DNA from: Arcobacter acticola
GTDB lineage: Bacteria > Campylobacterota > Campylobacteria > Campylobacterales > Arcobacteraceae
Direction of reading: 5' to 3'
DNA: 64,000 nt
Assembly: GCF_013177675.1 (NCBI RefSeq)
Contig: NZ_CP042652.1
Location: 868,001-932,000, forward strand
The notes beneath the pieces were generated by a model. That model saw nothing but the letters and a program-made list of their open reading frames with translations, was not told the DNA's origin and did no database searches. The position numbers and the translations under genes are program-made. Positions 11,348 through 31,955 of the stretch are shown one piece after another. The stretch's first letter is position 1, and each line of letters begins with the position of its first letter.

Positions 11348-11361
11348 ATCAAGGAGAACCC

Positions 11362-13335
11362 ATCGCAAAGTTTGAAGTAGTAAGTGATTACGAACCAGCA
11401 GGTGATCAACCTGTTGCCATAAAGGCTCTTAGTGATTCTATAAATGCTGGAAATCAATACAATACTCTTTTAGGAGTTACAGGAAGTGGTAAAACATACA
11501 CAATTGCAAAAGTAATTGAAGCCACACAGAAACCAACTCTTATAATGACTCACAATAAAACTTTGGCTGCTCAGTTATACTCTGAGTTTAAGCAGTTTTT
11601 TCCAAATAATCATGTTGAATATTTCATCTCTTATTATGACTATTATCAGCCCGAAGCTTATATTCCAAGATCTGATTTATTTATTGAAAAAGATAGCTCT
11701 ATAAATGAAGAGTTAGAACGACTGCGACTAAGTGCCACAGCTTCACTTTTATCTTTTGATGATGTTATTGTAATTGCTTCAGTTTCTGCAAACTATGGTT
11801 TAGGAAATCCAGAAGAATATAAAGCAATGGTTCAAAGAATTGAAGTTGGATTTGAATATTCACAAAAACAGTTTTTAGTAAAACTTGTGGAAATGGGTTA
11901 TAAAAGAAATGATAAGTTTTTTGATAGGGCAGATTTTAGAGTAAATGGAGATGTAATAGATATATTTCCTGCTTATTATGAAGATGAATTTATAAGAGTT
12001 GAGTTTTTTGGTGATGAGGTTGAGTCTATTTCAAAAAGAGAATACATAACAAACAATAAAACAAAAGACTTAGATGAGGTTATTATCTATTCTGTTAATC
12101 CTTTCGTTGTTTCAAATGACAAACTTGCAAATGCTGTTAAACAAATCGAAGAAGAGTTAGACGAAAGATTGGATTATTTTACAAAAGAGCAAAAATTAGT
12201 AGAGTATCAAAGACTAAAACAAAGAGTTGAATTTGATTTAGAGATGATAGAAGGAACTGGAATGTGTAAGGGAATAGAAAATTATGCCCGACATTTAACT
12301 GGTCAAAAGCCAGGTGAAACACCATATTCACTTTTAAACTATTTTGAACAAATGGGAAAAGATTTTTTACTAGTAGTTGATGAATCTCATGTGTCATTAT
12401 CTCAATTTAGAGGAATGCACGCAGCTGATAGAAGTAGAAAAGAGGTACTTGTTGATTATGGATTTAGACTTCCAAGTGCTTTAGATAATCGTCCACTTAA
12501 ATTTGATGAATTTATAAAAAAAGCTCCACACTTTGTATTTGTTAGTGCAACTCCAAATGAACTTGAAGTTAATATGAGTTCAGTTGTAGCAGAGCAAATT
12601 ATACGACCAACTGGCTTACTTGATCCAATAATTGATGTGGTTGATAGTGAATACCAAGTTGAAAAACTTCATGATGAAATCAAAAAAGTTGTGGCAAAAA
12701 ATGAAAGAGTATTAATAACGGTTTTAACTAAAAAAATGGCAGAAGAACTAGCAAGCTATTATGCAGATTTAGGAATAAAAGTAAAATATATGCATAGTGA
12801 AATTGATGCAATTCAAAGAAATCATATTATTAGAGAGTTAAGACTTGGAGTTTTTGATGTACTTATTGGAATCAATCTTTTAAGAGAAGGTTTAGATATT
12901 CCAGAAACTTCACTTGTGGCTATTTTAGATGCAGATAAAGAAGGATTTTTAAGAAGTAAAACTTCACTTATTCAAACAATTGGACGAGCTGCTAGAAATG
13001 AAAATGGAAGAGTTATTTTATACGCAAAAAAAATCACAGCTTCAATGCAGTTTGCATTAGATGAAACAAGTAGAAGAAGAAAAATCCAAGAAGATCATAA
13101 TACACTACATGGAATTACTCCTACATCAACAAAAAGAAGATTAGATCAAAGTCTAAAACTTGAAGAATACGATGAACTTGCATGGAAAAAAGAAAAAATA
13201 GAAAAAATGCCAGCAAGTGAGAGAAAAAAAATCTTAATAGAATTAAATAGACAAATGAAAAAAGCAGCTCAAGATCTAAACTTTGAAGAAGCAATACGAT
13301 TGCGAGATGAAATTTCTAAGGTAAAAGAAATATGA
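11362..13335 (+). CDS. uvrB: Excinuclease ABC subunit B, apparent ATC start
   Basis: The damage-verifying helicase of nucleotide excision repair, working with UvrA and UvrC. From 11362 the frame gives 657 residues, the usual UvrB length, and begins (M)[16 protein letters not shown], the standard UvrB N-terminus. The Walker A GVTGSGKT lies before the first in-frame ATG at 11545, so that ATG cannot be the start. No ATG, GTG or TTG exists between the in-frame stop at 11341 and 11545. AAGGAG at 11351-11356 is five bases before ATC. Other landmarks are the beta-hairpin [12 protein letters not shown] and the C-terminal UVR motif near [10 protein letters not shown]. The stop overlaps nth. Confidence 0.93.
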
Positions 13336-27426: not shown

Positions 27427-27873
27427 ATGAGATCTCATGTGAAAGCTTACGGAGTTGTTCCTTACTTAATAAAAGATAATGATATTAAGATATTGTTATG
27501 TCGTTCTGTTGCAAGTAAGAATAAATGGGGTTGTTTAAAAGGGACTCTAAATAAAAATGAAAGTGCATATGAGTGTGCAAAAAGAGAATTATTTGAAGAA
27601 AGTTCTTTACATGTAGAAGCTGTATTATATGAAAATTATTTTGAGCAAATTAATATTGATAAAGATATTGGTATTTGGTTAGTTAATGCTGATAATATAG
27701 AAGACCTAGAAAAATACTTTGTTGAAGATATTTTAAAAAGTAATTACTTATCTTGGGAGAATTCTAAGGTTAAATTTTTCTCTTTAAATAATTTACCTAG
27801 AATCAAAAACAAACAGGAAAACTTAATTAAAGAGATTAAGGATTTTTTGAAAAGTAAGAGTCAATTCCATTAG
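27427..27873 (+). CDS. NUDIX hydrolase
   Basis: A 148-residue protein with a Nudix box from GTLNKNE through AKRELFEESSL. It fits G-x5-E-x7-R-E-L-x-E-E, except that the usual Gly near the end is Ser. Such enzymes hydrolyse nucleoside diphosphates linked to other groups, such as dinucleoside polyphosphates or oxidised nucleotides. The substrate is not predictable. Its 3' end overlaps the convergent amidase gene by 38 bases. Confidence 0.85.
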   Translation: MRSHVKAYGVVPYLIKDNDIKILLCRSVASKNKWGCLKGTLNKNESAYECAKRELFEESSLHVEAVLYENYFEQINIDKDIGIWLVNADNIEDLEKYFVEDILKSNYLSWENSKVKFFSLNNLPRIKNKQENLIKEIKDFLKSKSQFH

Positions 27874-29653
27874 CAATTCCATTTGCTAATGATTGTTGAT
27901 AGTTTTTATCGTATAATCTTTTACTTTCTACTGGATGTGAAACATATCCAAGTTCTACAAGAATAGAAGGCATCTGTGCTCCCACTAGAACCCAAAACGG
28001 TCCTTCTCTAACTCCTGAATCACTTACATCTTTATATTTAGATCTTGCTGATTGTAATAAGCCTGCTTGTACATCAATTGCAAGTTTATGAGAAGCTGTA
28101 ATTCTTGGTCTATTTAATGATTCTAGGAATACATCTTTTGATGAATTACTCATTTCTCTAATATCAGATTTATTTTCAATTGCTGCAACTCTTTTTGCTC
28201 TTTCATTTCTTGCAGGACTTAAGAAAAATGTTTCTATTCCTGAAACTTCATTAGCTTTTTCTTTTGGAACTGAGTTACTATGAATTGATATAAATATATC
28301 AGCATTTTTATCATTTGCTAAAACAGTTCTATTCATAACTTTTATAAAAGTATCACTACTTCTTGTAAGATATACTTTATATCCTCTTTGTTTTAATATA
28401 GAGTATAAGTTTTTTGATACATTAAGATTTATAACTTTTTCATATCTTTTATTTGGTCCAACTGCTCCTACATCATCTGCCCCATGCCCTGGATCAATAA
28501 CAATTGTTTTATTGATTACTCTTGGTTGTGGAGTAGGTGCTTTTGTAGCTACTGCAGTTGCTTTATTGGTATTTTTATTTGATGGGCTACTTGGATATGT
28601 AGTAATAGTTAATTCTTTATCATTTAGAACATAATCAACTTTTTGTTCATCATTATTGATAATTCTAATTTTTACTCCATTGCTTCCATTTTCACTAACA
28701 ACAATTTTATCAACACCATCAATGCTCAATTTTATAGGATTTACATACTTGTATTTACCATTAAGATTAAATACATTTTCATAATTTGAAGCATTTTTAT
28801 ATCTTACAAATTGAACATCTCTTTTGTAATAGTTTTTATTAAATTTAACAATTATTTTATTGTCTTGAGTTTCCATAGATCGTATAGGATTTATAGTATC
28901 AACAAATTCTTGTGAATTTGCATTTGCAACTTTTGGTGTTTCTTCTGTTTGTACTACTTCTTTTGGAGAAGTTTGCTCTACATTTTTTTTTGCAACAGTA
29001 GGTTCATTTGATTTAATTGAGTTTTCATTTATAGAAATAATTACTTGTTTTTTATTTACTATATATGATGTATTAAGATTTTTTTTATCACTTAAAACAA
29101 TTCTTAATACATCAGGTTTAAATTGACCAATAGCAATTCTATCAATACCATTTATTGCTAATTTTGTAGGAGCTGCATCTTTAAAATAGCCTTTTAAATC
29201 AAATACATCTTTATTTACTGTTTTTTGATTTAATTCAAAAAATTTAATATCTTTTTCACTAATATCTACATTAAAATCTACAACAACTGTATTTCCAGAT
29301 GTATAAACTGATTTTATAGAATAGTATAAATCATTACTTGAAGTAGATGACTTTATAGCTTCATTTTGCTTTGGTGTCTCAACTTTAGCACTATAAATAC
29401 CATCATTTTTGCTAGTTCTTTTTTGAAGAATTTCTAACTTCTTTCTATCAGGAGTTACATCTTTGTTTAATTGTTCTCCTAAGAGAATAAGTTTTTCAAG
29501 TTCTTCAATTTTTTTTTGATCATTTTTTTCTATAAGAGCATTTAAGTAATTCATTTTTGCAGTACGGTATTGTTGCTTTAAATCAGCATAAATACCATTT
29601 GCAAATAATAAATTTAGCGTTAGTATGGTTAGAACGAAAATCTTTTTAAAAAT
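27836..29653 (-). CDS. N-acetylmuramoyl-L-alanine amidase (AmiC-type), apparent ATT start
   Basis: Splits the bond between MurNAc and the stem peptide, usually for daughter-cell separation. From the inferred start it has 605 residues: a signal peptide (FKKIFVLTILTLNLLFANG after the start), two AMIN-like domains and a C-terminal Amidase_3 domain. Zinc ligands lie in IDPGHGADD, the Glu of RYEKVI and ISIHSNS; the catalytic Glu is in VELGYVSHP. The first ATG in frame (29554) would remove the signal peptide. No ATG, GTG or TTG lies in frame upstream, but GGAG (29661-29664) is seven bases before ATT at 29653. The 5' end abuts the nitronate monooxygenase stop. Confidence 0.88.
   Translation of the reverse strand: MFKKIFVLTILTLNLLFANGIYADLKQQYRTAKMNYLNALIEKNDQKKIEELEKLILLGEQLNKDVTPDRKKLEILQKRTSKNDGIYSAKVETPKQNEAIKSSTSSNDLYYSIKSVYTSGNTVVVDFNVDISEKDIKFFELNQKTVNKDVFDLKGYFKDAAPTKLAINGIDRIAIGQFKPDVLRIVLSDKKNLNTSYIVNKKQVIISINENSIKSNEPTVAKKNVEQTSPKEVVQTEETPKVANANSQEFVDTINPIRSMETQDNKIIVKFNKNYYKRDVQFVRYKNASNYENVFNLNGKYKYVNPIKLSIDGVDKIVVSENGSNGVKIRIINNDEQKVDYVLNDKELTITTYPSSPSNKNTNKATAVATKAPTPQPRVINKTIVIDPGHGADDVGAVGPNKRYEKVINLNVSKNLYSILKQRGYKVYLTRSSDTFIKVMNRTVLANDKNADIFISIHSNSVPKEKANEVSGIETFFLSPARNERAKRVAAIENKSDIREMSNSSKDVFLESLNRPRITASHKLAIDVQAGLLQSARSKYKDVSDSGVREGPFWVLVGAQMPSILVELGYVSHPVESKRLYDKNYQQSLANGIANGIDSYFSKNP
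27868..27891. terminator. Hairpin at the NUDIX/amidase convergent ends
   Basis: CATTAGCAA pairs perfectly with TTGCTAATG around a 6-base loop. It spans the NUDIX stop and lies inside the last codons of the amidase gene. A shared terminator is likely. Confidence 0.55.
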
Positions 29654-29655
29654 TT

Positions 29656-30735
29656 TTATTCTCCATGAGTTAATTTATACATTAATTCTTTCACAGAAAT
29701 AATTTTATTTATTCTATAACCATTTGAACCTGTGAAAAATAATCCAGTATCAACGTCACCATTGTAAGCAGCACCTAGTCTATCTGCAATACAATAACCA
29801 ACAATTTTTGCTTCATGACCTCTATTACAAGGTGCAACACAATTTGAAATACATTGTACTTTTGGTGCTGTGTTATTTTCAATTGAGAATTGTAAGTTTG
29901 TTCTTACACCTCTTGCTGGTAATCCAACTGGAGATTTCATTAAAGTTATATCTTCTTCTTTTGCATTTAATAATACATTTTTAAATTTCGCATCAGCATC
30001 ACATTCAAATGTACCAATAAACCTTGTAGCCATTTGAACACCAGCGCATCCCATAGCAATAAATTTATCAATATCTTTTTTATCCCAAACTCCACCTGCT
30101 GCAATTATTGGTATATCACCCCAGATTTTAGCTTCTTCAATAACTGGACCTACGATATTTTCTAATTGGAATTCTTCTTGTCCACATTGATCATAAGTAA
30201 ATCCTTGATGTCCACCACTTAAGGGACCTTCTACAATTACAGCGTCAGGAATTTTATTGTATCTTTTCCATTTTTTACAGATAAGTTTTAAAGCTCTTGC
30301 ACTTGAAACAATTGGAATCAATGCAACATCTGGAAAATCTTTTGTAAACTCAGGCATATTAGTAGGAAGTCCAGCACCTGTAATAATCATATTAAAACCA
30401 GCTTCACAAGCATCTCTTACAACTCTACCATAATCATTGATTGCGTATAGAACATTACATCCTAAAGGTGCATCTCCACATATCTTTCTTGCATTACCTA
30501 TTATTTCAACTAATGCATCTTTACTATAAAAGTTTGCTACATCTTTTGGCTTATCTTTTTTAGTAACAATGTGAACATTTTCGCTCATGTTTCTGTAGTA
30601 ACCAGTTCCAACACTTGAAACTACACCCAATCCACCTTCTAAACTAACATTTCCAGCTAATTGATCCCAGCTTATTCCTACACCCATACCACCTTGAATA
30701 ATTGGGTGTTTTATTTCATACTTTCCTATTTTCAA
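29656..30735 (-). CDS. Nitronate monooxygenase family flavoprotein
   Basis: A 359-residue TIM-barrel FMN enzyme of the 2-nitropropane dioxygenase/FabK family. KHPIIQGGMGVGISWDQLAG is the N-terminal FMN region. The middle holds GAGLPTNMPE and GPLSGGHQGF with the catalytic His region, and IIAAGGVWDKKDI and GVQMATRF follow. It could oxidise nitronates, or act as an unidentified oxidoreductase. Four cysteines around QCISNCVAPCNRG may bind metal. It lies between tyrS (11 bases) and the amidase (2 bases), an order seen in other Campylobacterota. Confidence 0.85.
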   Translation of the reverse strand: MKIGKYEIKHPIIQGGMGVGISWDQLAGNVSLEGGLGVVSSVGTGYYRNMSENVHIVTKKDKPKDVANFYSKDALVEIIGNARKICGDAPLGCNVLYAINDYGRVVRDACEAGFNMIITGAGLPTNMPEFTKDFPDVALIPIVSSARALKLICKKWKRYNKIPDAVIVEGPLSGGHQGFTYDQCGQEEFQLENIVGPVIEEAKIWGDIPIIAAGGVWDKKDIDKFIAMGCAGVQMATRFIGTFECDADAKFKNVLLNAKEEDITLMKSPVGLPARGVRTNLQFSIENNTAPKVQCISNCVAPCNRGHEAKIVGYCIADRLGAAYNGDVDTGLFFTGSNGYRINKIISVKELMYKLTHGE

Positions 30736-30746
30736 AATTAGCCCTT

Positions 30747-31955
30747 CTATTTTATTATTATTTTAGCGAAATTTTTTTTACCTTTTTGTAAAATGTATTC
30801 GCCTTTTTCTAAATTTAGTTTATCATCGCCTATTTTTTCTTGATTTATAGATACTGCATTTGCTTTTATATCACGTCTAGCTTGTGATGTAGAGTCAACT
30901 AACTTAGAATCAACTAATGCTTGACAAATCCAAACAGGAGCATCTAATTCAAAGCTATTCATATCTGTAGGAACATCTTTTTTTGCAAAAACTCTTTCAA
31001 ATTCTTCTTTTGCAGTAATTCCAGCTCCATTTCCATGAAATCTTTCAACGATTTCCATTGCAAGTGATTCTTTCACTTTTTTAGGATGTAAAGTCTCACT
31101 TTTAACGCCTTCTTTTATCTCTTCAATCTCTTTTAATGACTTAGCAGATAGAAGTTCAAAATATCTCCACATCAATTCATCAGAGATTGATAAAATCTTT
31201 CCAAACATATCAAAAGCCTCATCTGTAACACCAATATAGTTACCTAAAGATTTTGACATTTTTTGAACACCATCTAATCCTTCAAGAATTGGCATCATAA
31301 GAACAGCTTGTTGTTTTTTACAATTATAAGCTTTTTGTAAAGTTCTTCCCATTAATAAATTGAATTTTTGGTCTGTTCCTCCAAGTTCTATATCTGTATT
31401 CATAGCAACTGAATCATAACCTTGTAATAAAGGATACAAAAATTCACTAACTGCTATTGGAGTATTTGATGCGAATCTTTTAGAAAAATCATCTCTTTCT
31501 ATCATTCTAGCAACTGTTAAGTTTGATGCAAGTGCAATTAAACCACCTGTTCCTAGTTCTTTTAACCATTTACTATTAAACATAACTTCTGTTTTTGATT
31601 CATCTAAAATCTTAAATACTTGATCTTTATAAGAAACAGCATTTCTTTGAACATCTTCTTCACTTAATACTTTTCTTGTTTCACTTTTACCTGTTGGGTC
31701 ACCAATAGTTGCTGTAAAATCTCCAATTAAAAATTGAACAATCCCACCAAATTTTTGAAAAGTTGCTAACTTCTGAATAAGTACAGTATGTCCTAAATGT
31801 AAATCAGGAGCTGTAGGATCAAAACCAGCTTTAACATAGAAATTTTCACCTGTTTCAAAATATCTTTTAATAAGTTTTTCAATGGCTTCAATATCTATAA
31901 TTTCAAAGCTTCCTCTTTTAATCTCATCTATTGCTTCTCTAATCTTATTTTCCAT
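30747..31955 (-). CDS. tyrS: Tyrosyl-tRNA synthetase
   Basis: A 402-residue class I synthetase charging tRNA-Tyr. The HIGH-type motif is HLGHT (in [13 protein letters not shown]), and the KMSKS motif is exact ([10 protein letters not shown]). The C-terminal S4-like RNA-binding region contains [19 protein letters not shown]. The form is the TyrRS-beta type, with HLGHT, common in Campylobacterota. It lies 20 bases after the RelA/SpoT gene in one long operon. Confidence 0.97.

Follow-up and report, generated by a model that had tools for sequence, protein, structure and literature searches.

The window analysed here is a stretch of 64,000 nucleotides that lies within a complete genome of 3.02 Mb (referred to as G000). 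On its reverse strand, a gene for an N-acetylmuramoyl-L-alanine amidase occupies positions 27836–29653 as an open frame of 605 codons plus stop, when read from an ATT codon (Pfam Amidase_3, 3.9e-48). The catalytic domain (PF01520) covers residues 384–598 and scored 164.2 bits against a cut-off of 27. When the protein was compared with the NCBIfam model AmiC (NF038267), it scored 112.9 bits, under the curated cut-off of 700. Its N-terminal half contains two similar segments, ..IKSVYTSGNTVVVDFN.. and ..IRSMETQDNKIIVKFN.., which may be AMIN-like; no Pfam match at 0.001 was obtained for either. Upstream of the amidase, on the same strand, lies a gene of the nitronate monooxygenase (NMO) family at 29656–30735 (Pfam NMO, 2.7e-82), and beyond it what we take to be tyrS (30747–31955, reverse strand), heading the order tyrS, NMO-family gene, Amidase_3 gene.

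The NMO gene ends ..LTHGE* with a TAA stop at 29658–29656, and a GGAG at 29664–29661, the putative ribosome-binding site of the amidase, falls within its last codons. After 7 nt it is followed by ATT (29653–29651), reading ATT TTT AAA AAG, which begins 2 nt past the NMO stop. The amidase frame, with an in-frame stop ahead of it, is open from 29674 and contains no ATG, GTG or TTG until the ATG at 29554–29552, which is codon 34. Read from ATT, the protein starts with basic residues followed by a hydrophobic stretch, giving the signal-peptide-like N-terminus (M)FKKIFVLTILTLNLLFANG (29653–29594). The initial annotation had placed the ATT at 29653 and the GGAG, with its overlap with the end of the upstream gene, exactly, and its claim that no ATG, GTG or TTG comes before the signal-peptide-like segment was confirmed in the amidase frame. 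Two other in-frame AUH codons (ATT, ATC or ATA) are found here, an ATT at 29674, for which no ribosome site was seen, and an ATA at 29659, only 1 nt after GGAG. In many congeners this ATA, two codons ahead of the ATT, is replaced by GTA, and in other genera it lies out of frame (out of phase in genomes where the amidase is in frame 1 relative to the upstream stop). Hence, ATT 29653 is the conserved start candidate.

Standard gene callers would choose the ATG at 29554, and translation might begin there to give a product without the hydrophobic N-terminus. We consider this very unlikely: the genome G009 has ATA at that codon, with its next canonical start later still, and in the orthologues the segment before codon 34, which contains the hydrophobic core, has kept both its open frame and its hydrophobic character. 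A peptidoglycan amidase, moreover, must be exported.

To follow the start codon across the Arcobacteraceae, the upstream NMO gene, present in 102 of 104 family genomes, was used as an anchor. Seven of these 102 (G037, G039, G046, G050, G052, G070, G101) stood outside the count; 95 start regions were read and 93 were resolved, G065, where the contig ends, and G069, which has no open frame, being set aside. In 74 of the 93 resolved genomes, spread over 13 genera and, as species of one family, not independent of each other, there was no canonical amidase start between an in-frame stop and the end of the hydrophobic core. This was the case for 28 of 30 Aliarcobacter, all 15 resolved genomes of genus g9, 10/10 of g19, 6/6 of g15, 4/4 of g18, and others. 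Eighteen rows (13 Aliarcobacter, 3 g2, 2 g15) were automatically labelled ‘none’, an artefact of the placement of the hydrophobic core; no canonical start occurs in them, and for all but G011, which was read by eye as ATT, an AUH codon was listed. At 5–7 nt past a conserved GGAG/AGGAG or a near variant (GGGG, GGTG), most of the 74 genomes carry ATT, with ATC in G009, G022 and G023 and ATA in G001, G005, G013 and G024. A canonical codon was found in the other 19. In 17 genomes of g5, g7, g8, g12 and g20, which are deeper-branching genera, TTG or ATG occurs near the same place. The remaining two are Aliarcobacter: G012 has TTG, and G002 has ATT directly followed by TTG and was counted as canonical. 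The comparison thus supports the earlier proposal that the amidase begins at ATT.

The start region in the window is an A/T run, and the loss of an ATG through a sequencing or assembly error in such homopolymer-rich sequence had been offered from the outset as the alternative, in the form of a shared error source. This was refuted. The 74 resolved genomes without a canonical start, which come from 13 genera and include several complete single-contig assemblies, likewise lack the ATG, and as independent genomes agree, the absence of ATG is not an error; we give this explanation practically no weight.

The NMO and amidase genes abut, and the A/T runs between them are possibly slippery; the amidase might therefore be an extension of the upstream protein, produced by frameshifting or stop readthrough and needing no start codon of its own. 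However, indels in the spacer shift the amidase between all three frames (2, 1 and 0) with respect to the upstream stop, the ATT being in phase every time, and three different recoding events would be needed across the genomes. In many genomes an in-frame stop occurs at most 14 nt before the point where the neighbour's stop ends, and a cytoplasmic flavoenzyme ahead of a signal-peptide-like segment would make no sense. In G086 and G087 the stop of the upstream gene is the codon immediately before the ATT; therefore, no start further upstream is possible there. On this evidence, upstream starts and a recoding fusion are excluded for these two genomes and improbable in general, and we regard the fusion as extremely unlikely. 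It may be noted that variation at the third base (T, C or A) is also expected of an ordinary isoleucine codon. That reading is excluded only because no upstream start is available and canonical starts are aligned at this place in relatives. Taken together, the comparative case for assigning the predicted amidase start to ATT is strong.

When 21 genomes of other families were sampled (G261 included), 15 had a canonical amidase start and six (G106, G113, G128, G137, G199, G293) did not. As 15 of the 21 are canonical, the AUH amidase start is mainly a trait of the Arcobacteraceae, and, together with the TTG of the Aliarcobacter G012, they indicate that an AUH start is not indispensable. Apparent ATA starts in many amidases of Campylobacter and other families were ruled out, an in-frame ATG at −17 being present in most.

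The initial annotation had also mentioned an ATC start in a second core gene of the window. This gene is uvrB (11362–13335, forward strand; NCBIfam UvrB equivalog), with ATC at 11362–11364 behind AGGAG at 11352–11356; the start is identified from aligned orthologues, which bear TTG or ATG at the same codon. Among the 31 Aliarcobacter genomes, two gave no match and one locus was cut; in the 28 readable loci the aligned codon was ATC in 12, ATA in one, TTG in 12 and ATG in three. In g9, where one of 16 genomes gave no match, ATC was found in 6/15 and ATG in 9/15. The g9 copies that have a ribosome site use ATC. In those with ATG there is mostly no ribosome site, and a TATAAT-like box sits a few bases ahead of the start codon, a layout that resembles leaderless mRNAs (L397–L400, L403, L406, L407, L409).

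A gene for an HI0933-like flavoprotein (G000 665813) was matched in all 31 Aliarcobacter genomes, and 30 loci were read. No canonical start precedes codon 13 in any of the 30, where the candidate start codon is ATC in 18, ATT in 11 and, in one, GTT preceded by ATA; an in-frame stop lies one codon upstream in 25. Codons 13–14 fall within the nucleotide-binding motif GAGASxLM. In g9, 15 of 16 genomes are without a canonical start, the exception (L389) having one at −7, and the codon just before the aligned position is ATA in 15 genomes and ATT in one. The flavoprotein gene is thus, as judged from its alignments, a very strong candidate for an AUH start.

Further AUH starts were sought by comparing 864 kb of G000 with 800 kb of G009, both Aliarcobacter. 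Antisense shadow frames and aligned 5′ leaders made up most of the output of the first, unfiltered screens; the filters then applied kept the best-scoring reciprocal best hits that did not overlap and had 80 codons or more, and asked for a ribosome-site-like motif at the start in both genomes. The reciprocal comparison gave 589 pairs, of which four have AUH in both genomes behind such a motif, with every canonical codon lying further downstream: the amidase, uvrB, the HI0933-like flavoprotein and a 574-codon frame at G000 199902. The suggestion that the lineage uses such starts, for which a search of core genes on ATT, ATC or ATA had been proposed, is supported, as to their use, by these four conserved genes, with the HI0933-like case extending genus-wide. 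The rate of 4/589 (about 0.7%) has a sole control comparison that is too small to judge it: G261 against the 589 G000 genes yielded 63 pairs with no AUH start, where the Aliarcobacter rate would predict about 0.4. Shared canonical starts with a ribosome-site motif were ATG/ATG in 301 of the 589 pairs, TTG/TTG in 48, GTG/GTG in nine and mixed in 16; the remaining 215 had no such start under this rule.

The frame at G000 199902 (reverse strand, L345), presumably encoding an NMT1/sensor-like protein, has a signal-like start with AUH in both G000 and G009. Its Aliarcobacter orthologues are mixed (AUH, TTG and ATG), which makes it the weakest of the four. A length of 582 was noted for this frame against about 850–870 in relatives, and it may be truncated in G000. 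Pair a355 (G000 near 110942) stands outside the count of four. In pair a356, near G000:C1:111000, G009 has ATC and G000 has TTG, with the next canonical codon 60 codons later.

We then considered the initiation machinery. For infC, to which the initial annotation had also directed attention, no AUH start was found: it begins with TTG in 30/30 Aliarcobacter loci (L141–L170), one of the 31 genomes giving no match. The known autocontrol loop of IF3 is consequently not seen here. The initiator tRNA, present in three copies with the anticodon arm GGGCTCATAACCC, and IF3 both look ordinary by sequence; therefore, there is no sign of altered decoding. Unusually long ribosome sites were not seen in the AUH genes of G000, which have 4, 6, 6 and 5 nt against a commonest length of 4–5 nt in ATG genes.

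These results bear on the possibility that AUU is indeed the start but no weak regulatory device, the ribosomes of Arcobacteraceae accepting AUH codons well and the start codon drifting in a near-neutral manner. The presence of AUH in several unrelated genes, the ATC/TTG difference in a356 and the switching of uvrB between ATC and TTG or ATG all agree with it. On the other side stand the ordinary initiator tRNA arm and IF3, the predominance of ATG (443 of 530 same-codon shared starts) and the retention of AUH by the amidase over most of the family. Near-neutral drift is a serious alternative, but an unlikely one.

AUU starts in chromosomal genes have precedents in E. coli, where infC and pcnB begin in this way, and the AUU start of pcnB reportedly limits expression (Binns and Masters 2002, as cited elsewhere). 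The amidase resembles both in being a chromosomal gene with an AUU start. Unlike E. coli infC, it is not the gene of IF3 itself, infC here having TTG, and it differs from both in that its start lies 2 nt past an upstream stop and is conserved over 13 genera. Three marks of AUH genes of the infC, pcnB and ccpN type are found in it: no in-frame canonical start at the conserved N-terminus, an AUH codon behind a ribosome site and conservation in relatives.

In other bacteria, one paper (PMC13009471) describes Staphylococcus cvfC1 (AUU), ccpN of S. aureus and B. subtilis (AUA) and S. aureus infC (AUA); it further states that AUU and AUA starts lower output, and that output was reduced in the cvfC1 and ccpN reporters. 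These genes share with the amidase a conserved non-canonical start and a conserved ribosome site, and they rest on initiation profiling and reporters, whereas the amidase case rests on comparison. Their ribosome sites are described there as extended; the Arcobacteraceae genes belong to another phylum, are different genes and have sites of ordinary length in this genome. Extra IF3 represses non-canonical starts, according to PMC2268962. The AUU start of Borrelia burgdorferi pncA/BBE22 is backed by biochemistry and structure in PMC13398362, and that of lepA in B. burgdorferi and B. licheniformis is inferred in PMC1780047. Annotation had missed the AUU start in pncA and lepA, and its use restores a conserved N-terminus, as for the amidase; the genes and lineages are different.

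Within the Campylobacterota, AmiA of Campylobacter jejuni and Helicobacter pylori is the probable functional counterpart of the amidase. PMC6767375 describes C. jejuni AmiA as an Amidase_3 enzyme whose loss blocks cell separation. The loci that were read from other Campylobacter species have the same upstream neighbour as the amidase here, but their starts are canonical, often an ATG at −17 that overlaps the upstream stop. No report of AUH starts in Arcobacter or Campylobacterota was found in open-access full texts, subscription papers aside, and the words AUA, ATA, ATT and amiA are absent from the main text of the C. jejuni Ribo-seq paper. For A. butzleri, gene prediction in the genome paper used ATG, GTG and TTG only, and AUH starts would be missed partly for this reason. 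AUH starts as such are already known (infC, pcnB, ccpN, cvfC1, pncA); the breadth of conservation seen here is unusual.

We therefore consider it probable that the amidase is translated from AUU, as a weak, IF3-sensitive start that is coupled to the upstream gene and kept by selection. For expression level, coupling and IF3 sensitivity, what we infer as most likely is the following. When initiator fMet-tRNA (anticodon CAU) reads AUU, the third position would be mismatched; IF3 normally rejects such pairing, and this rejection would keep amidase synthesis low. Initiation would lean on the GGAG/AGGAG site and on ribosomes that terminate the upstream gene 2 nt earlier. Selection would keep the weak start because an excess of an enzyme that cuts peptide side chains from peptidoglycan is presumably harmful, and the output of amidase would shift with the level of IF3 or the fidelity of initiation. 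The same device may operate in about 0.7% of the sampled conserved genes, namely uvrB, the HI0933-like flavoprotein and the weaker fourth case besides the amidase.

It is conceivable, though rather doubtful, that the amidase, uvrB, the HI0933-like gene and others form a conserved group controlled by translation fidelity, whose output would rise jointly under IF3 limitation or an excess of ribosomes. Such a group, if real, would tie cell separation, via the amidase, to the state of the ribosomes and to translation of the upstream neighbour. Gene calling restricted to ATG, GTG and TTG would trim the predicted export signal from the amidase and the nucleotide-binding motif from the flavoprotein; UvrB of this genome would lose about 60 codons. 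The bacterial AUH starts in the literature seen are few and mostly concern single genes; an AUH start held over most of the Arcobacteraceae, with several such genes in one lineage, would mean that weak starts can be durable and not accidental.
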